In this document: positions 23,481 through 46,555 of the stretch, piece after piece
How positions within the stretch are numbered: the stretch's first letter is position 1
Layout: each line of letters begins with the position of its first letter
NCBI RefSeq assembly: GCF_003258515.1
Contig: NZ_QGEH01000001.1
Coordinates: 2,666,001-2,730,000 of the forward strand
Reading direction: 5' to 3'
Length of the DNA: 64,000 bases
Origin: Marinobacter bohaiensis
Lineage (GTDB): Bacteria > Pseudomonadota > Gammaproteobacteria > Pseudomonadales > Oleiphilaceae
Position numbers and translations under genes: made by a program
Notes under the pieces: generated by a model
What the model was told of the DNA's origin: nothing
What the model saw: only the letters and a program-made list of their open reading frames with translations
Databases searched by the model: none

Positions 23481-24209
23481 TTATTCGATCAGTGTACCTT
23501 CCGCCTCGCCCACGACGATACGGGTCAGTGCGCCCGGCTTGTTCATATTGAACACGCGCACCGGCATGCCCTCATCACGGCACAGGCAGATGGCCGTCAG
23601 GTCCATCACGCCCAGTTTCTTGTCCAGCACGTCGTCGTAGGTCAGGCGTTCGTACTTTTCGGCCCCCGGATCCTTGACCGGATCCGCCGAGTAGACACCA
23701 TCCACCTTGGTGGCCTTGAGCACCACATCGGCATCGATTTCGATACCACGCAGGCAGGCCGCCGAGTCCGTGGTGAAGAACGGGTTGCCGGTACCGGCAC
23801 AGAAAATCACCACATCACCGTCTTTCAGGTCGCGAACGGCACGACGGCGGTCGTAATGTTCGACAATACCACTCATCGGGATGGCAGACATAACGCGCGT
23901 GCGGATATTTGAGCGCTCCAGCGCATCGCGCATGGCCAGACCGTTCATCATGGTGGCCAACATACCCATGTGGTCACCGGTGACACGGTCCATGCCGGCC
24001 GCACTCAGGGCGGCACCGCGGAACAGGTTGCCGCCGCCGATAACCAACCCCACCTGGACGCCGATACCGATCAACGCGCCGATCTCCAGCGCCATCCGAT
24101 CCAACACTTTGGGATCGATCCCGAACTCCTGCTCACCCATCAGGGCTTCGCCGCTGAGTTTGAGGAGGACGCGTTTGTACTTGGGCTGGGTCTGGGAGTG
24201 CTTCGGCAT
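23481..24209 (-). CDS. pyrH: UMP kinase
   Basis: Hexameric amino-acid-kinase-fold enzyme that phosphorylates UMP to UDP, typically activated by GTP and inhibited by [17 protein letters not shown] is the N-terminal phosphate-binding stretch; [13 protein letters not shown] and the [13 protein letters not shown] motif bind nucleotide. The length of 242 matches the family. It lies between tsf and frr, the usual bacterial order. Confidence 0.98.
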
Positions 24210-34027: not shown

Positions 34028-35776
<1,749 letters not shown>

Positions 35777-35817
35777 AGCCAACCTCGTCTGCTCTTTTCA
35801 GAATCATCGACCCTTGG

Positions 35818-35937: not shown

Positions 35938-36213
35938 TCACCCCCAGCGCAGAAGCACCGCCACCCAAACCACAGAAAGGACCAGGGCAATCCAGAGACT
36001 GGCCTCGGTCAGCCCCAGGAACAGCAGGTGGATATAGGCGCTGCTGAGCAACCCGATAAACAGGCGGTCGCCGCGAGTGGTGGCGATGGGCAGAAAACCC
36101 TTGCGCTCCACGCACGGTCTGGCCACTTCGAATACCGTCATCACCAGCAGGATCGCGGCAATGGTGGCGAAGAAAATGGCCGTGGGTATCGTCCACTGCA
36201 TCCAGGCAATCAT
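35938..36213 (-). CDS. glpU: Small DUF2160-like membrane protein of the glycerol importer
   Basis: 91 residues starting at ATG 36213 (GGAGG six bases upstream) with two or three transmembrane helices: one at TAIFFATIAAILLVMTVFEV, one or two in the LFIGLLSSAYIHLLFLGL to VLSVVWVAVLLR region, and a charged loop RPCVERKGFLPIATTRGD between. It begins 10 bases after glpQ. The position and topology match GlpU of GlpSTPQUV systems, whose function is not established. It could be a third membrane subunit or an assembly factor. Confidence 0.82.
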   Translation of the reverse strand: MIAWMQWTIPTAIFFATIAAILLVMTVFEVARPCVERKGFLPIATTRGDRLFIGLLSSAYIHLLFLGLTEASLWIALVLSVVWVAVLLRWG

Positions 36214-36223
36214 CACGAGCCTC

Positions 36224-37033
36224 CTATACCCGGCCCAGGGCAAAGCCCGTAGCCACATGGTTGCGAACGAACCAGACCACCAACAGGCCCGGAATAATCG
36301 TCAGCACGCCGGCCGCCGCCAGCACGCCCCAGTCGATACCGCTCGCGCCGACCGTCCGCGTCATGATGGCGCTGATGGGCTGGGCGTCGACGGACGTCAG
36401 CGTGCGCGCCAGCAACAGCTCCACCCAGGAAAACATGAAGGCGAAGAAAGCCGTCACACCGATGCCCGAGCGGATCATCGGGATGAAAATCTTGATGAAG
36501 AAGCGCGGGAAGCTGTAACCGTCAATATAGGCCATCTCGTCGTATTCCCGAGGGACGCCCGAGATAAAGCCCTCCAGAATCCACACGGCCAGGGGCACGT
36601 TGAACAGACAGTGCGCCAGTGCCACCGCAATGTGGGTGTCGAACAGGCCGATGGATGAATACAGCTGGAAGAACGGCAACAGGAACACCGCCGGCGGCGC
36701 CATGCGGTTGCTGAGCAGCCAGAAGAACAGGTGCTTGTCGCCCACGAACTTGTAACGGCTGAAGGCGTAGGCCGCAGGCAGCGCCACCAGCAGCGTAATC
36801 ACCACGTTGATCGACACGTAGATGGTCGAATTGATATAGCCCGAGTACCAACTGGGATCGGTGAAAATCACCTGATAGTTATGCAGCGTGAAGTTCTGCG
36901 GCCAGAAGGTCAGCGAGCTGAGGATTTCCTGGTTGGTCTTGAACGACATGTTCAGTAACCAGTAGATGGGCAGCATCAGCAAGACAATATAGAGACTGAT
37001 GCCAAAGCCCTTGCGACGATGATGGCTCTTCAT
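36224..37033 (-). CDS. glpQ: Glycerol ABC transporter permease
   Basis: MalG-type permease, 269 residues, six helices. The cytoplasmic EAA loop is YDEMAYIDGYSFPRFFIKIFIPM, where the coupling helix contacts the ATPase. GGAGA lies before the ATG. It starts 12 bases after glpP. The symbol follows the glycerol-importer nomenclature and is unrelated to the E. coli phosphodiesterase GlpQ. Confidence 0.9.
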   Translation of the reverse strand: MKSHHRRKGFGISLYIVLLMLPIYWLLNMSFKTNQEILSSLTFWPQNFTLHNYQVIFTDPSWYSGYINSTIYVSINVVITLLVALPAAYAFSRYKFVGDKHLFFWLLSNRMAPPAVFLLPFFQLYSSIGLFDTHIAVALAHCLFNVPLAVWILEGFISGVPREYDEMAYIDGYSFPRFFIKIFIPMIRSGIGVTAFFAFMFSWVELLLARTLTSVDAQPISAIMTRTVGASGIDWGVLAAAGVLTIIPGLLVVWFVRNHVATGFALGRV

Positions 37034-37045
37034 GATCCGTCTCCC

Positions 37046-37912
<867 letters not shown>

Positions 37913-37925
37913 ACTCGAATCTCCC

Positions 37926-39033
<1,108 letters not shown>

Positions 39034-39041
<8 letters not shown>

Positions 39042-40146
39042 GCGCCGCACCTCCTTCGCCCGCTCCGGTTTCATGGGCCGGCGCATGCACCAGTTCGCCG
39101 GCCTGGTTGAACACGAACAGCTTGCCAATCGGCAGGTAGATCTTGATTGGCGTTTCCGTGTGGTACTCGTGAACCCCCATCAACTGCAACACCAGCTCGA
39201 AATGATCGTTTTTTACGTGCATGAAGGTTTCCGAACCGGAGATTTCCGCCAGCTCGACGGTCATCGCCAGTTCCAGGTCGTCCTCGTTCTGCGGCACCAG
39301 GCTGATATGACTGGGGCGGATGCCGAACTGGTAGGCGTCCGGCTCCAGAGCCTTGAGCTCGCGGGTCAGCGGGTGGTGGGCGTACTCATCGAAGGTGACG
39401 TCGTTCTCGGTGACCCGGCCGGGCATGAAGTTGATGGGCGGCTCGCTGAACAGTTCGGCGGCCGTCACGCTGGCCGGCTTGCGGTACACCTGAGTCACCG
39501 GTCCGCTCTGAATGATGCGCCCTTCGTGCAACAGTGTGGTGTGGCCGCCCAGCGCCAGCGCCTCATTGGGCTCGGTCGTGGCGTACACCGCGATGCAATT
39601 GCGCTCACGGAACAGGGCGCGCAGCTCGGTGCGCAGCTCCTCACGCAGCTTGTAGTCGAGGTTGACCAACGGCTCGTCGAACAGGATCAGGCTGGCATCC
39701 TTGACCAGCGCCCGCGCCATGGCCGTGCGCTGTTGCTGACCGCCGGACAGCTCCAGCGGATAGCGCTTGAGCAGCGGCTCGATGCGCAGCATCGCGGCGG
39801 TTTCCTGTACCCGCCGCTCGATCTCGGATCGGGGCATGCGCGCCAGTTTCAGGGGCGAGGCAATGTTGTCCCAGACGGTCAGGTTCGGATAGTTGATGAA
39901 CTGCTGGTAGATCATCGAGATGTTGCGCTTCTGCACGGACTGGCCAGTCACGTCCTGGCCATCCACCAGCACACGGCCCTCGTCAGGCCGGTCCAGGCCC
40001 GCCATCAGTCGCATCAGCGAGGTCTTGCCGGCCAGCGTCCGGCCCAGCAACACGTTGAACGAGCCGGCCTCGAAGGTGATGTCGGCGGCGTCGATATGGG
40101 CGACACCGTCTACGGTTCGGGAAACGTTCTCCAGGGTCAGCGACAT
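39034..40146 (-). CDS. glpS: Glycerol ABC transporter ATPase lacking the switch histidine
   Basis: 370-residue MalK-like ATPase and first gene of the importer operon. Walker A is GRTLAGKT (35-42), the signature LSGGQ is normal (133-137) and Walker B keeps Glu158. The H-loop histidine is replaced: VYATTEP has Thr191 where GlpT has His199. The C-terminal regulatory domain is present. It is read from a promoter region that carries a sigma-54 sequence and a GlpR-type operator. Confidence 0.9.
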
Positions 40147-40206
40147 GCGCCTTGGATCCTTGTTTTTATTTTCGGATCACCGCGCGCCGGATTGCATCAG
40201 CGCACG

Positions 40207-40218
40207 TTCGTATACGAA
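40207..40218. promoter_or_regulatory. GlpR-type operator at the glpS promoter
   Basis: Perfect palindrome TTCGTATACGAA matches the TTCG-N4-CGAA core of GlpR operators known in E. coli. It lies 10-20 bases downstream of the -12 element, so bound repressor would cover the start of transcription. GlpR is encoded at 44128. Confidence 0.7.
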
Positions 40219-40227
40219 TACAATGGC

Positions 40228-40243
40228 GCAATGAACATACCAA
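40228..40243 (-). promoter_or_regulatory. Sigma-54 promoter of the glpSTPQUV operon
   Basis: On the minus strand TTGGTATGTTCATTGC has the -24 GG and -12 GC exactly 10 bases apart, a good match to the TTGGCACG-N4-TTGC consensus. The divergent gene encodes a sigma-54 activator. Transcription would start near 40216 and leave a leader of about 70 bases before glpS. Confidence 0.7.
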
Positions 40244-40333
40244 TGTCCCAACATAAACCGTCAAAATCCCACAAAACACTGATTAAAAATAACTAAATAA
40301 AATGATTCGCGAACAGGGAAGGCGTTCGTGTTT

Positions 40334-40345
40334 TTCGTTTTCGAA
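40334..40345. promoter_or_regulatory. Second GlpR-type box in the glpS/activator gap
   Basis: TTCGTTTTCGAA again fits TTCG-N4-CGAA. It is 100 bases upstream of the sigma-54 element and about 110 before the activator gene. AATGATTCG (40301-40309) and CGAATCATT (40342-40350) also form a 9-base inverted repeat across it. It may affect the activator gene or loop with the box at 40207. Confidence 0.5.
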
Positions 40346-40351
40346 TCATTG

Positions 40352-40366
40352 TGTTCAATATGAACA
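40352..40366. promoter_or_regulatory. Palindromic candidate activator site (UAS)
   Basis: TGTTCAATATGAACA is a perfect 15-base palindrome about 110 bases upstream of the -24 element, the normal distance for a sigma-54 enhancer. More GAACA half-sites follow at 40376, 40385 and 40397. The adjacent activator has a Fis-type helix-turn-helix suited to such dyads. The remaining part of this 311-base gap is AT-rich with no gene. Confidence 0.5.
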
Positions 40367-40457
40367 TTGACAAGCGAACACCCTGAACACAATACTGAAC
40401 AAAAATTGCGCACACCCGCTCGGCAAACAATCACAACAAACAAGGCAGGTCATCACC

Positions 40458-42311
40458 GTGAGCAGGACGCCCACCTCCGACGATTTTGGCGATCTCATCG
40501 CCGCTTCCTGGACTCGTTGCCAGGCCATGGGCCTGAGCCACGCCACGCCAGCAGGCACCCACCGGATAGCCACTCCGGAACCGGCGCAGCGCTTTGCCCT
40601 GCTGCTTGAGACCACCGAACGGGAAGTACTGCCCTATTACGAGAACATACTTGCCAACAGCCGCTCCCTGATCCTGCTGGCCGACCACGAAGGCCGGCTG
40701 CTCAAGCACTGGGGCGACCGGCGTTTCATTGAGCCGGGGCGGGAAGCCCTGTTCGAAACCGGAACCAGTTGGCAGGAACGCGACAACGGCACCAACGCCA
40801 TCGGTACCGCCATCGCTTCGGGCCAGGCGGTGCAGGTGCAGCGCAACGAGCACTTCCTGACCGCCAACCGCTTCATGACCGGCTGCGCCGCGCCGATCCT
40901 GGACGCGGAACAGAACCTGGTCGGCGTGCTTAACGTATCCAGCGATGCCTATCTTCCCCAGGCCCACACCCTGGGCATGGTCAAGCTGATGGCCACCGCC
41001 GTGGAGAACCGGCTATTGGTGCACCAGTACGGCGGCGGTTGTGCCCTGCTGACCTTCAACACCAACGCTGACAACCTGGACAGCCAGTGGTCGGGCCTGC
41101 TCGCCATCGATGCCGACGGCGAGGTAATGGCCGCCAACCGCCGTGCCGCCCAATTGCTGGGCACCGACCTCCTGCACCAGCCGATCACCGGCCTGGTGGA
41201 CATGTCGCTCTCCAGTCTGCTGAACCAATCGGATGACCACACCTTTCCGCTGCAGGCACGAACCCGCCGACACCTCTACGCCAGCCTGCGCAAACCCGAC
41301 CGGCGCAGCGGCGAAGCGCCGGCTGCCAAGCAGCACGCCCGGCACCCGCAAAGTGCCGCGGGCTTTCGTAACGTGGAGTTCGGCGACGCCCAGATCCAGC
41401 GCTGTATCCGCCAGGCCACACGCGTGGCGGGCCGGGACATCCCCATCCTGATCCAGGGGGAAACCGGTGTTGGCAAAGAGGTGTTCGTAAAAGCGCTGCA
41501 CCAGGCGAGCGCCCGCCGGGAGAAACCGCTGGTGGCCGTCAACTGCGCGGCGATTCCATCGGAGCTGGTGGAATCGGAGCTGTTCGGCTACGCCAAGGGC
41601 GCCTTTACTGGCGCCAGTCTGCAGGGGTCGACCGGGCTGATCCGCAAGGCCGATGGCGGGATACTTTTCCTGGACGAAATCGGCGAGATGCCGGCCCGGG
41701 CCCAGGCCCGGCTATTAAGGGTACTGCAGGAGCGGGAGGTGCTGCCGGTTGGCGCCACCGAAGCCTATCCAGTGAACATCCATCTGGTTTCGGCGACCAA
41801 CCAGCCGTTGAAGGAACGGATTGAAAGCGGGGTGTTCCGACGGGATCTCTACTACCGGATCAGCGGGCTCGCCCTGGAGCTGCCTCCACTGCGCCAGCGC
41901 ACCGACCGGCGCTCGCTGATCCGCCACATCCACACGCTTTACCGGGACAGCGACCAGCCCAGCGCCCTGCCCGATGCCATCCTCGATCTGCTGGAGCAGC
42001 ATCCCTGGCCGGGCAACGTGCGCCAGTTGATCAACGTGATGCAGGTGGCCCTGGCCATGGCCGGCCCGGAACCGGTGGAAACCTGGCACCTGCCGGACGA
42101 CTTCCTGCAGGATCTGCAGCTGGCCACGGTGACGCCCATCGAACCGGCGCTGGCCGTCAGCCGCCCCGCCGGATCCGGGCCCGGCTCGACGCTCGACGCG
42201 CTGCTGGAAGTCTACAACCGGCACCAGGGCAATGTGTCCCGAACCGCCCGCCACCTGGGCTTCAGCCGCAACACCGTGTACAAACGGCTGCGGGAGCTGG
42301 GCGTGCGTTGA
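40458..42311 (+). CDS. AcoR-like sigma-54-dependent transcriptional activator
   Basis: 617 residues, GTG start. The N-terminal GAF-type sensory domain (about 50-200) is of the AcoR class, then a linker with PAS-like features, then an AAA+ domain with Walker A GETGVGKE (about 333-340), the GAFTGA sigma-54 contact loop at 381-386, and Walker B GGILFLDEIGE. The C-terminus is a Fis-type helix-turn-helix (NVSRTARHLGFSRNTVYKRL). Divergent from glpS with a sigma-54 promoter between, it most likely activates the glycerol importer in response to a small metabolite. The ligand is unknown. Confidence 0.92.
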   Translation: MSRTPTSDDFGDLIAASWTRCQAMGLSHATPAGTHRIATPEPAQRFALLLETTEREVLPYYENILANSRSLILLADHEGRLLKHWGDRRFIEPGREALFETGTSWQERDNGTNAIGTAIASGQAVQVQRNEHFLTANRFMTGCAAPILDAEQNLVGVLNVSSDAYLPQAHTLGMVKLMATAVENRLLVHQYGGGCALLTFNTNADNLDSQWSGLLAIDADGEVMAANRRAAQLLGTDLLHQPITGLVDMSLSSLLNQSDDHTFPLQARTRRHLYASLRKPDRRSGEAPAAKQHARHPQSAAGFRNVEFGDAQIQRCIRQATRVAGRDIPILIQGETGVGKEVFVKALHQASARREKPLVAVNCAAIPSELVESELFGYAKGAFTGASLQGSTGLIRKADGGILFLDEIGEMPARAQARLLRVLQEREVLPVGATEAYPVNIHLVSATNQPLKERIESGVFRRDLYYRISGLALELPPLRQRTDRRSLIRHIHTLYRDSDQPSALPDAILDLLEQHPWPGNVRQLINVMQVALAMAGPEPVETWHLPDDFLQDLQLATVTPIEPALAVSRPAGSGPGSTLDALLEVYNRHQGNVSRTARHLGFSRNTVYKRLRELGVR

Positions 42312-42335: not shown

Positions 42336-43814
42336 TCAGTCCTGCAGACGGTTCACCGCTTCGACCCACCCCTCGTAGAGCCGGTCTCGGGTTTCCTTGG
42401 TCATCTCCGGGGTGAAGCTGCGGTCGCATTGCCAGAGCTGTTCCAGCGCTTCCAGGGACTCGAACACGCCGGCCTTGAGGCCCGCCAGATAGGCCGCACC
42501 CAGGGCGGTAGTTTCGATCAGTCTGGGTCGGTCAACGGTAGCCCCCAGGATATCCGCCAGGAACTGCAGCACCCAGTTGTTCTCCACCATGCCGCCGTCC
42601 ACCCGCAGCGCCACCGGCCGCACGCCGTCGCGCTCCATGGCTTTCTGCAGATCCTTGGTCTGGTAGCACACCGACTGCAGCCCGGCGGTGACGATTTCCT
42701 TGATCCCCGTATCCCGGGTCAGGCCGAAAATCGCTCCGCGCGCCTTGGGGTCCCAATAGGGTGCACCCAGCCCGGTGAACGCCGGCACCAGGTAGACGCC
42801 GTGATTGGCCGGGGTCTGTTCCGCCAGGGATTCCGTTTCCTTTGCCATGCGGATCAGCTTGATGCCGTCCCGCAACCACTGGATGGCGGCCCCGGCGATG
42901 AAGATGCTGCCCTCCAGGGCGTAGGTGGTCTTGCCATTGAGGCGGTAGGCCACGGTGGTCAGCAACCGCGATTCGGAATGCAGCGGTTTATCGCCGGTGT
43001 TGAGCATGAGGAAGCAACCGGTGCCGTAAGTGCTCTTGGCCATGCCCTCGCGGAAACAGGTCTGACCGAACAAGGCCGCCTGCTGGTCGCCCGCCATGCC
43101 GTACACCGGCACCGTCCCGCCGAGCAGATCGGCCTCGATGTCCCCAAAGTCGTCCGCCGAATCCTTCACCTCCGGCAGCAGCGATTCGGGCACGTTGAAC
43201 AGGGCCAGCAGGTCCTTGTCCCAACGCTGTTCGTGGATGTTGAACAGCAGGGTGCGGGAGGCGTTGGTGGCGTCGGTCAGGTGCCTGCGGCCACCGGTCA
43301 GCCGCCACAGCAGGAAGGTGTCGACCGTGCCGAAGGCCAGCTCTCCCCGCTCGGCGCGAGCCTGGGCCCCTTCCACATTGTCCAGGATCCAGCGAATTTT
43401 GGTGGCGGAGAAGTAAGGGTCCGCCAGCAGACCGGTCTTGTCCTGAATCACCGGCTCGTGGCCCTCGTCTTTCAGAGTACGGCAGAGGGTCGCGGCGCGG
43501 CGGTCCTGCCAGACGATGGCGTGGTAGATGGGCTTGCCGGTCTGGCGATCCCAGATCACCGTGGTTTCACGCTGGTTGGTGATGCCGATTCCGGCCAGAT
43601 CGCCAGCGCCGATGCCGGCTTTTTCCATGGCTTCGCGGCAGGTCCGCAGCACCGAATCCCAGATGTCTTCCGGATCGTGCTCCACCCAGCCACTCTCGGG
43701 AAAATGCTGCGGAAATTCCTGCTGGCTGACCGCGCGGACCTCGGCCCTTTCATCGAAAATCATGGCCCGGGAACTGGTCGTGCCCTGGTCGATTGCCAAG
43801 ATATAACGCGTCAT
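42336..43814 (-). CDS. glpK: Glycerol kinase
   Basis: FGGY-family kinase, 492 residues, phosphorylating glycerol to glycerol 3-phosphate, which traps it in the cell. [13 protein letters not shown] is the first phosphate loop, [10 protein letters not shown] and [12 protein letters not shown] line the substrate site, and GGMVENNW and [12 protein letters not shown] are FGGY signatures. It converges with the activator (24-base gap) and diverges from glpR across a region with two GlpR-type boxes. Confidence 0.98.
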
Positions 43815-43967: not shown

Positions 43968-44003
43968 TTCGCAAACGAATCCAAATATTTTTTCGTTTAC
44001 GAT
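43968..44003. promoter_or_regulatory. Tandem GlpR-type operators between glpK and glpR
   Basis: TTCGCAAACGAA (43968-43979) is a perfect TTCG-N4-CGAA box, and TTCGTTTACGAT (43992-44003) differs at one core base. Their centres are 24 bases apart, close to two helical turns, favouring cooperative binding. They lie in the 313-base divergent gap and can control glpK and glpR together. I see no gene in the rest of the gap. Confidence 0.65.
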
Positions 44004-44127: not shown

Positions 44128-44886
44128 ATGGCACAGAAACACCGTCAGGACCTGATCATGGAGCTGATCGAAAAGACCGGCTTCGTGACCACCGAACAAC
44201 TGGTGGAGCATTTTCAGGTGACGCCCCAGACCATCCGCCGCGACCTCAACCAGTTGGCCCGGCAGAGCCGCGTGCGGCGCCATCACGGCGGGGCGGGCGT
44301 CGATTCCAGTACCGTCAACACCGCTTACCAGGCGCGCAAGATCATGGAGCTGGAAGCCAAGGAACGCATCGCCCAGAGCCTGGTGCGGATGATTCCCGAC
44401 GGTGCCTCGCTGTTCATCAACATCGGCACCACCACCGAGACCATCGCCCGCGCCCTGCTGGGTCACAGCAACCTCAAGGTCGTCACCAACAATCTGCATG
44501 TGGCATCGATTCTCGCCAGCCGGGAAGACTGCAGCATCATCATCGCCGGGGGCGAAGTGCGTAATCGCGACGGCGGCATCGTCGGCGAGGCGACCCGGGA
44601 TTTCATCAACCAGTTCAAGATGGATTTCGGCATCGTCGGCATCAGCGGCATCCACATGGACGGTTCCCTGCTCGATTTCGACTACCGCGAGGTGCGTGTC
44701 GCCCAGACCATTATGGCCAATTCCCAGCAAGTGCTGCTGGCCGCCGACCACTCCAAGTTCGGCCGCAACGCCATGGTAAGACTGGGCAGCATTACCCAGG
44801 CCGACCACTTCTTCACCGACCAGGCACCGCCCCTGGAAATCCGCCAACTGCTGGACGACAACGACGTGCGCCTGCACGTGGTCTGA
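44128..44886 (+). CDS. glpR: DeoR-family glycerol-3-phosphate regulon repressor
   Basis: 252 residues. The N-terminal helix-turn-helix (residues 5-55) has the DeoR signature VTPQTIRRDLNQLARQSRVRRHHGG. The C-terminal DeoRC sensor domain (about 75-235) has the INIGTTTETIA phosphosugar loop. Repression is expected to be relieved by glycerol 3-phosphate. It stands between glpK and glpD, and boxes matching its known operator core occur upstream of all glp units in the window. Confidence 0.95.
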   Translation: MAQKHRQDLIMELIEKTGFVTTEQLVEHFQVTPQTIRRDLNQLARQSRVRRHHGGAGVDSSTVNTAYQARKIMELEAKERIAQSLVRMIPDGASLFINIGTTTETIARALLGHSNLKVVTNNLHVASILASREDCSIIIAGGEVRNRDGGIVGEATRDFINQFKMDFGIVGISGIHMDGSLLDFDYREVRVAQTIMANSQQVLLAADHSKFGRNAMVRLGSITQADHFFTDQAPPLEIRQLLDDNDVRLHVV

Positions 44887-44942: not shown

Positions 44943-44975
44943 TTCCTTTACGAATCACCCGGCTTTTCGCATAAT
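44943..44975 (+). promoter_or_regulatory. glpD promoter with overlapping GlpR-type box
   Basis: TTTACG (44947-44952) and CATAAT (44970-44975) are spaced by 17 bases. TTCCTTTACGAA (44943-44954) matches the GlpR core at seven of eight positions and covers the -35 element, a classic repressor position. A further half-site TGTTCG lies at 44920. Confidence 0.5.
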
Positions 44976-45040: not shown

Positions 45041-46555
45041 ATGCAATCGGCAACCACGGACTACGACCTGATTGTCATCGGCGGCGGCGTCAACGGTACC
45101 GGCATCGCTATGGATGCCGCAGGCCGGGGCCTGAAGACGCTGCTCTGCGAGATGCACGACCTGGCGTCAGCCACCTCTTCCTCCAGCAGCAAGCTGATCC
45201 ACGGCGGGCTGCGCTATCTGGAACACTACGAATTCAAGCTGGTACGCCAGGCTCTGGCGGAACGGGAAGCCCTGCTGCGCAACGCGCCGCACATCATGTG
45301 GCCAATGCGCTTCCGGCTGCCCTACCAGTCGCACCTGCGTCCCGCCTGGATGATCCGTACCGGTCTGTTTTTGTACGACCACCTGGCCAAACGGGAGTTG
45401 CTGCGCGGCTCCAACGGCATTCGCTTTGACGGCAACAGCCCGCTGATCCCCGGGATCACCCGTGGCTTCGAGTATTCCGACGGCTGGGTCGACGACGCCC
45501 GCCTGGTGGTCCTGACCGCCAAGGCCGCGGAAGAAAAAGGCGCCACGGTGCGCACCCGAACCCGCTGCGTCAAGGCAGAGCGGGACGGCATGAACTGGCA
45601 GGTGACACTCCGGGACGAGCGCAGTGGCCACGAGCAACAGGCGCGCTGCAGGACGCTGGTCAACGCGACCGGCCCCTGGGTCAGCTCGCTGTTCAAGGAG
45701 TCCCTGGGCATGCAGGCGCCCAAGCAGATCCGTATGGTCAAGGGCAGCCACATCGTGGTGCCGCGCATCCATACCGAACCCGAAGCCTATATCCTGCAGA
45801 ATGCCGACGATCGCATCATTTTCGTCATTCCCTACGAGGACGATTTCTCGCTGATCGGCACCACGGATGTGGACTATCAGGGAGACCCGAAGAAGGCCAC
45901 CATTTCCGAGGAGGAAGTGGATTACCTGGTCGGTATCGTCAACGACTATTTCCGCAACAAGCTGACGCCAGAGGATGTGGTCTGGTCCTATTCCGGGGTG
46001 CGGCCATTGATGGACGACGAAGGCGGATCGGCGCAGAAAGCATCACGGGACTATACGTTCGAAGTCGATGGCGGCAAGGACGACGCGCCGCTGATTTCCG
46101 TATTCGGCGGCAAGATCACCACCTACCGCAAGCTCGCGGAGGCGGCCACCGACCGCATCAGCCAGTTCTTCACCGACGCCGGCGACGGCTGGACCCGCGA
46201 CGCCACCCTGCCCGGCGGCGATTTTGAAAGCCAGGAGGACCTGCGCGACGAGCTCAAGACGGCCTACCCCTGGGTGCCATCCGGCCTGCTCCACCGCTTC
46301 GTGCGGACCTACGGTACGCGCACCCGGAAACTGCTCGATGGCTGCCACTCGATGGAAGACATGGGCCGGCATTTCGGCGCCAACCTCTATGCCCGCGAGA
46401 TCGACTACCTGCGCGATCAGGAGTGGGCGGTGGACGCCGAGGACATCGTCTGGCGCCGCACGAAGCTGGGTCTGCGTCTGACCGCCGCCGAGCTGAGCGG
46501 CATCCAGGCCTACCTGGACAGCCAGACGGTTACCGCACCGCTAACCACCGCCTGA
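45041..46555 (+). CDS. glpD: Aerobic glycerol-3-phosphate dehydrogenase
   Basis: Membrane-associated flavoprotein that oxidises glycerol 3-phosphate to dihydroxyacetone phosphate and passes electrons to quinone. The 504-residue sequence opens with the FAD motif DLIVIGGGVNGTGIAMDAAGRG and has the SSSSSKLIHGGLRYLE signature. The C-terminal GlpD domain follows (about 390-495). GAGAGGATC precedes the ATG. Its tail overlaps the convergent M24 gene by 15 bases. Confidence 0.98.
   Translation: MQSATTDYDLIVIGGGVNGTGIAMDAAGRGLKTLLCEMHDLASATSSSSSKLIHGGLRYLEHYEFKLVRQALAEREALLRNAPHIMWPMRFRLPYQSHLRPAWMIRTGLFLYDHLAKRELLRGSNGIRFDGNSPLIPGITRGFEYSDGWVDDARLVVLTAKAAEEKGATVRTRTRCVKAERDGMNWQVTLRDERSGHEQQARCRTLVNATGPWVSSLFKESLGMQAPKQIRMVKGSHIVVPRIHTEPEAYILQNADDRIIFVIPYEDDFSLIGTTDVDYQGDPKKATISEEEVDYLVGIVNDYFRNKLTPEDVVWSYSGVRPLMDDEGGSAQKASRDYTFEVDGGKDDAPLISVFGGKITTYRKLAEAATDRISQFFTDAGDGWTRDATLPGGDFESQEDLRDELKTAYPWVPSGLLHRFVRTYGTRTRKLLDGCHSMEDMGRHFGANLYAREIDYLRDQEWAVDAEDIVWRRTKLGLRLTAAELSGIQAYLDSQTVTAPLTTA

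Follow-up and report, generated by a model that had tools for sequence, protein, structure and literature searches.

Candidate sigma-54 activation and GlpR-type boxes upstream of a glycerol importer operon in Marinobacter bohaiensis and related Gammaproteobacteria

Introduction

Sigma-54 promoters that also bear a repressor are known in principle, and acoA of Bacillus subtilis likewise combines sigma-L and AcoR with a repressor, CcpA. AcoR-like activators, such as that for acetoin in Bacillus, are one-component proteins with a sensory N-terminus, an AAA+ domain containing GAFTGA and a helix-turn-helix, and they have upstream sites (PMC3162934, PMC7175178). DhaR of Escherichia coli belongs to the same regulator family and serves glycerol-related (dihydroxyacetone-related) metabolism; it lacks GAFTGA and is sigma-70 dependent (PMC3162934). 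Glycerol importers of the GlpSTPQUV type have been described in Rhizobium leguminosarum VF39 and, as a counterpart, in Cupriavidus metallidurans, in both cases near glpK and glpD and beside a DeoR-family GlpR that represses the importer; GlpR is the sole regulator in the available part of that description, which has no sigma-54 activator (PMC7912956). The GlpR regulons of E. coli and Pseudomonas share a DeoR-type GlpR with glycerol 3-phosphate as inducer; E. coli has several operators per promoter and at glpFK combines GlpR with CRP (PMC5493358, PMC6922529). In P. putida, GlpR repression leads to long, bimodal lags because release of GlpR needs glycerol 3-phosphate (PMC6922529). The same review of Pseudomonas glycerol metabolism describes GlpF and GlpR, and the words 'ABC transporter', 'RpoN' and 'AcoR' are absent from its available text (PMC6922529). 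Transcripts of glpSTPQV, glpK, glpD and glpR change between glycerol and glucose in another strain, in an account whose available part contains neither 'AcoR' nor 'sigma-54' (PMC11223650).

Here we analysed a 64-kb stretch (the window) of the 4.76-Mb genome of Marinobacter bohaiensis. It encodes the same type of importer, near glpK and glpD and beside a DeoR-family GlpR, and, unlike the Rhizobium and Cupriavidus loci as described, an AcoR-like sigma-54 activator (hereafter EBP). This EBP shares its layout with other AcoR-like activators but differs from them in its apparent target, a glycerol importer, and in the GlpR-type box that lies on the predicted sigma-54 start. Unlike DhaR, it contains GAFTGA and its apparent -24/-12 target is conserved; E. 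coli glpFK pairs GlpR with CRP, and here the partner would be the EBP. Among the matches listed from the open-licence PMC literature, we found no description of a sigma-54 activator acting together with GlpR at a glycerol importer. Such an arrangement would bring the uptake of glycerol under an additional layer of control, by a sigma-54 activator, across a large set of Gammaproteobacteria, and a substrate-sensing activator would alter the logic of GlpR-dependent lags.

Results and discussion

Gene content and distribution

The importer genes form a minus-strand operon, glpS-T-P-Q-U-V (40146 to 34028), divergent from the plus-strand EBP gene (Table 1). The glpU assignment follows the gene order of the Rhizobium operon (PMC7912956), and the glpT start codon (39041) was picked by hand, the listed reading frame beginning at 39128. 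No importer protein had an NCBIfam match above cut-off among the matches listed; linkage to glpK, glpR and glpD suggests glycerol as the substrate. GlpS was 86-90% identical within the genus and 66-84% identical to its counterparts in the named relatives. A single rpoN-type gene was detected in the genome.

Table 1. Features of the importer region, in window coordinates.
Feature	Position	Strand	Basis or remark
glpV, importer solute-binding protein	34028..35782	-	Pfam SBP_bac_1/8; cluster also in relatives
small membrane protein at glpU position	35938..36213	-	ORF; start codon picked by hand; name from position
glpQ permease	36224..37033	-	Pfam BPD_transp_1
glpP permease	37046..37957	-	Pfam BPD_transp_1
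glpT ATPase	37926..39041	-	Pfam ABC_tran, OB_MalK, TOBE_2
glpS ATPase, first gene of importer operon	39034..40146	-	Pfam ABC_tran
A-rich AANAANAA motif, Crc/Hfq-type, in glpS leader	40160..40170	-	close to start codon
GlpR-type box O1, over predicted sigma-54 start	40207..40218	.	perfect, TTCGTATACGAA
putative glpS sigma-54 promoter element (-24/-12)	40228..40243	-	motif and comparison across relatives
GlpR-type box O2	40334..40345	.	perfect; O1-O2 centre distance 127 bp; array 6 bp away
putative enhancer (UAS) array	40352..40401	.	TGTTCA at 40352; TGAACA at 40361, 40384 and 40396; imperfect CGAACA at 40375
EBP gene promoter, sigma-70-like	40367..40396	+	TTGACA-18-AATACT; within enhancer array
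EBP, AcoR-like sigma-54 activator	40458..42311	+	GAF, sigma-54 AAA+ with GAFTGA, Fis HTH
glpK, glycerol kinase	42336..43814	-	TIGR01311 match above cut-off
GlpR-type box, glpK-glpR intergenic	43968..43979	.	perfect; 7/8 box next at 43992
glpR, DeoR-family repressor	44128..44886	+	NF008154 match above cut-off
GlpR-type box ahead of glpD	44943..44954	.	7/8, TTCCTTTACGAA
glpD	45041..46555	+	NF008899 match above cut-off

The first-pass annotation had taken the divergent gene for a sigma-54 activator with GAFTGA, and the reading frame does contain that motif; Pfam places a GAF domain at residues 65-185 and HTH_8 at 584-613. Against the NCBIfam equivalogs, the best 25 of 29 matches, PrpR, NifA and DhaR included, were all under cut-off. 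The gene was present in all six genomes of the genus, in 64 of 151 genomes of the family and in 221 of 298 genomes of a Pseudomonas-type genus (the latter two at E <= 1e-120), and it is divergent from glpS in relatives too. The window's genus and a large genus, g13, belong to the same family (f1); the motif rows of g13 loci L097 and L098 equal those of Marinobacter salicampi (L016) and M. changyiensis (L017), so g13 was read as Marinobacter. EBP relatives of 40-45% identity occurred in methylotrophs, at loci L072, L074 and L075 (Methylophilaceae-type) and L090-L095 (methanotrophs), with no glp match in the flanks examined.

For comparison across relatives, the best 80 of 198 candidates were retained, of which 17 had no glpS match (16 remote relatives, and L041, which is near a contig end). 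Loci were read for 30 of the 64 matches in the family and for 30 of 38 matches in a further set. From the 221 matching Pseudomonas-type genomes, 30 loci and 80 further stretches, 110 in all, were read; in three the glpS start could not be read, and another 11 duplicated earlier loci, their upstream regions being identical.

The -24/-12 element tracks the activator gene

Upstream of glpS, the proposed -24/-12 element was found where the first-pass annotation had put it, reading TTGGTATG-TTCA-TTGC with 10 nt from GG to GC; counting the C of GC as -12, the predicted +1 is 40216, within O1. The sigma-54 consensus at -24 is TGGCACG. Position and spacing of the element thus stand as first annotated, but its TGGTATG departs from this consensus at two positions. 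A word search of the available part of PMC3162934 did not return the consensus string. When the intergenic region was dinucleotide-shuffled 2000 times, 31 shuffles reached the window's sigma-54 score (10 of the 2000 did so in the right zone), and a genome-wide scan for TGGYAYGN4TTGC gave 11 matches against six with a control pattern, so the element alone is unspecific. Taken by itself the window's copy is weak evidence and unremarkable; it is the comparison that carries the case.

Among 123 readable glpS loci, 101 had a divergent EBP gene, 22 had no EBP gene and none had it in another arrangement. We called the element present if it scored 19 or more between 25 and 150 nt upstream of glpS, a threshold picked after the first set and then kept fixed for the later one. 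After removal of identical upstream regions, it passed in 97 of 97 loci with the EBP gene vs 1 of 22 without (L130, score 19.7); L200, L202 and L203, scored separately at 18.99, 18.99 and 20.19, are outside the 97. At the fixed threshold, all 96 unique loci of the later Pseudomonas-type set passed. Two g13 loci without an EBP match (L198 and L199) have glpS directly behind glpK and no -24/-12 element. They are a natural control for the link between element and EBP gene, and their importer seems to have shifted from sigma-54 control to the glpK promoter.

Close relatives, in which loss of the element had been named at the outset as counter-evidence, keep it: all six genomes of the genus have the EBP gene, the -24/-12 element, the array and both boxes. 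In an alignment of 31 family sequences, some of them near-identical, TTGC and TGGTA were invariant in all 31 rows, as were TTCG and CGA of O1, TTCG of O2 and a core of the array. Non-coding conservation was highest in the -24/-12 element, O1 and the array. From these sequence comparisons we infer that the glpS promoter is read by RpoN.

Enhancer array and its distance from the promoter

The palindrome TGTTCAATATGAACA of the first-pass annotation lies at 40352-40366 as reported, but belongs to a larger array of four perfect half-sites and one imperfect half-site, two perfect and the imperfect one having been omitted. TGTTCA/TGAACA hexamers number five in the intergenic region, four within the array and a fifth that overlaps the -24/-12 element; none of 2000 dinucleotide shuffles reached that number. 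At least two such hexamers lay between -200 and -40 in all 96 deduplicated loci, and a GTCAA core adjoined a half-site in 93 of the 96. The exact palindrome, with its 3-nt spacer, has only two copies in the genome, the other within the reading frame 23481-24209; a scan for TGTTCAN6TGTTCA gave four perfect matches, the window's included. An IHF site was considered as a further conserved part and dropped, IHF-like sites occurring in 4 of 101 linkers against a shuffled rate of 1.1%. The window itself has an IHF-like AATCAGTGTTTTG between array and promoter.

We measured spacing from the GTCAA core of the array to the G of -12. Classes near 95, 107, 118, 129, 141 and 151 nt were first noticed among the 93 of 96 loci that could be anchored. 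They were set down and then checked on the new Pseudomonas-type loci, of which 95 of 96 had an anchor. These loci occupied five of the six classes, and none fell at 109-117 or 120-128. When the two sets were combined, 181 of 188 loci fell within 2.5 nt of the six class centres, which are about 11 nt apart; the distances off the classes were 134 (two Grimontia loci), 135, 137, 144 (two) and 147. Loci L020, L124, L125 and L204 lacked the anchor, which was ambiguous in five others; L081 and L213 were assigned by hand to the nearer anchor.

Changes of 4-34 nt were reconstructed for the 188 loci on a quick tree and divided into whole and half helical turns. With small steps made cheap the ratio was 25:0, under a scheme that lets small steps chain and thereby hides moves of 4-9 nt. 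Equal costs gave 27 whole-turn and four half-turn changes out of 31, plus one of more than 34 nt; size-weighted costs gave 24 and five of 30; and alternative anchors for L066, L084 and L096 gave 28 and two of 30. Under the three schemes, the control distance from -12 to the glpS start gave whole-to-half ratios of 7:5, 9:8 and 11:7, and that from codon 20 of the EBP gene to the array (161 loci) 19:10, 23:24 and 30:24. These controls are near even under two of the cost schemes, and the 19:10 of the codon-20 control shows that the cheap-small-step scheme favours whole turns. Whole-turn spacing is therefore a strong trend and not a strict rule, the number of independent events being uncertain and dependent on scheme and tree.

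The trend is good evidence that the array acts on the glpS promoter by looping. It is unlikely to stem instead from constraint on the EBP promoter, pairing of GlpR sites or uneven genome sampling. The array does overlap the EBP -35, O1-O2 spacing does move with array distance in the window's family, and the inferred changes depend on a quick tree and on the cost scheme chosen; but the control distances are nearly unphased under equal and log-type costs (9:8 and 11:7; 23:24 and 30:24), and Pseudomonas loci, the majority of the set, mostly have no start-site box. With looping as the preferred reading, the spacing classes offer a natural series of enhancer distances for asking how a UAS-bound EBP reaches polymerase; the influence of UAS binding on EBP activity is still unknown according to the available part of a review (PMC7175178).

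GlpR-type boxes

A perfect box over the predicted start, TTCGTATACGAA, had been annotated at first pass and is present there; a second perfect box, O2, had been missed. Two perfect TTCGN4CGAA boxes occurred in none of 2000 dinucleotide shuffles, and one or more in 32. Five perfect boxes lie in the 64-kb window, three of them in glp intergenic regions. Matches at 7/8 are not rare by chance: the window has 42, or 47 at 7/8 or better, about 0.24 per 330 nt.

The importer boxes resemble those elsewhere at the glp locus, the TTCGN4CGAA-type palindrome being common to the importer and the glpK-glpR region and present in 7/8 form before glpD. Of 30 family loci, 28 had a box of at least 7/8 within 350 nt past glpR (before glpD), nearly always TTTTCCTTTACGAA, and 25 had one within 330 nt upstream of glpR, six of these perfect and the remaining five loci having none. 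In most family loci O1 starts 11 nt after the G of -12. Of 29 deduplicated family loci, 27 had it perfect at +9 to +13 from that G and 28 had at least a 7/8 match; it was also perfect in the one Halopseudomonas MAG, in both Grimontia loci and in one of six other members of the order. O2 was perfect in 10 of the 29, with O1-O2 spacings of 126 (five loci) or 127 (five), close to 12 turns; elsewhere in the family one half persists, the half TTCG being invariant in all 31 aligned rows. Judged by sequence likeness, GlpR would bind both O1 and O2.

Outside the family the box is patchy. It was missing at the start site in both Marinobacterium loci and in 55 of 56 Pseudomonas loci, leaving a single perfect one, and was perfect in nine of the 96 later Pseudomonas-type loci. 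The predicted GlpR control of the importer is thus not general, and most Pseudomonas have only the sigma-54 part. On a tree of 45 EBP proteins (22 with the start-site box, counting L096 at 7/8, 21 without and two outgroup), the box trait needs three changes, so the predicted GlpR control was lost or gained a few times.

This patchiness suits a reading in which the importer is under sigma-54 and the EBP and the boxes serve a different regulator or do no more than tune the EBP gene, with no repression of glpS by GlpR; O2 precedes the predicted EBP start by about 60 bp, and two of the five perfect boxes in the window are away from glp genes. We consider this quite unlikely, since the motif recurs between glpK and glpR and, in 7/8 form, ahead of glpD, and since O1 holds its start-site position not only in the window's family but also in Grimontia, P. 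mendocina and the Halopseudomonas MAG. That GlpR and sigma-70 alone control the importer, as the GlpR-repressed glycerol-type importers described in Rhizobium and Cupriavidus might suggest (PMC7912956), and that the EBP has another target, is very improbable: the sole sigma-70-like match on the glpS strand (40373-40345) is at the array, far from the start, and the -24/-12 element, which is with O1 and the array the best-conserved non-coding sequence, tracks the EBP gene.

In nine g13 loci (L100, L103, L106, L108, L110-L113 and L115), a 7/8 palindrome, TTTTCG-N4-(N)GAAA with a variable centre, was seen at -94. It precedes the start-site box by 105 bp (10 turns) and is possibly a second operator that moved; it was left out of the operator count.

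A model for importer control

The first-pass annotation had proposed that the AcoR-like protein switches the importer on and that GlpR represses it. Both halves are supported, the former by the tracking of element and EBP gene and the latter by the likeness of the boxes to other glp boxes. We consider the following model, taken as a whole, quite probable. glpSTPQUV would be transcribed from a single sigma-54 promoter. The EBP would bind the TGTTCA array, which lies 109-158 bp from the -24 element on its upstream side, loop to polymerase and drive open-complex formation once its GAF domain holds ligand, likeliest glycerol or a close product; that the EBP senses one of these directly is a guess from gene context. 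GlpR on O1, over the start, would block the promoter, and O2, about 12 helical turns upstream beside the array, would strengthen repression, probably through bridging by GlpR in competition with the EBP loop. Glycerol 3-phosphate would release GlpR. As the EBP must be active and GlpR must be off, the importer would behave as an AND gate. The sigma-70-like promoter of the EBP gene lies within the array, and array-bound EBP should therefore shut it and repress its own gene.

A more specific version, tentative and in our view somewhat unlikely, holds that two DNA loops compete, the GlpR O1-O2 repression loop having to open before the EBP activation loop, and that enhancer distance evolves chiefly by whole-turn jumps. 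The O1-O2 loop would then take in the promoter and reach the enhancer's edge. If true, natural genomes would record a face-of-helix rule for a sigma-54 enhancer that has no conserved IHF site.

A possible Crc/Hfq layer

The A-rich Crc/Hfq-type site near the ribosome-binding site of glpS may add a third layer, catabolite control. AANAANAA is a Crc target motif, and in several Pseudomonas glpF has been predicted to be under Crc (PMC3003667). Immediately ahead of glpS, the motif was present in 95 of 101 EBP-type leaders, against a rate of 4.4% in shuffled sequence, and in 93 of 96 of the later set, and in 3 of 22 leaders without the EBP gene. A CrcZ-like RNA was matched in this genome at G000:C5:27529-27882 (L162), about 850 bp past a sigma-54 activator domain, with 56.4 bits and so under the Rfam gathering score of 95. 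Such matches occurred at E <= 0.001 in 12 of 19 genomes, including all six of the genus, one of the 19 lying above gathering; the available part of PMC6296734, in contrast, calls CbrAB exclusive to pseudomonads. By eye, EBP gene leaders in two Pseudomonas loci (L021 and L024) also carry A-rich motifs of the AACAACAA type, so the activator may itself be subject to Crc/Hfq.
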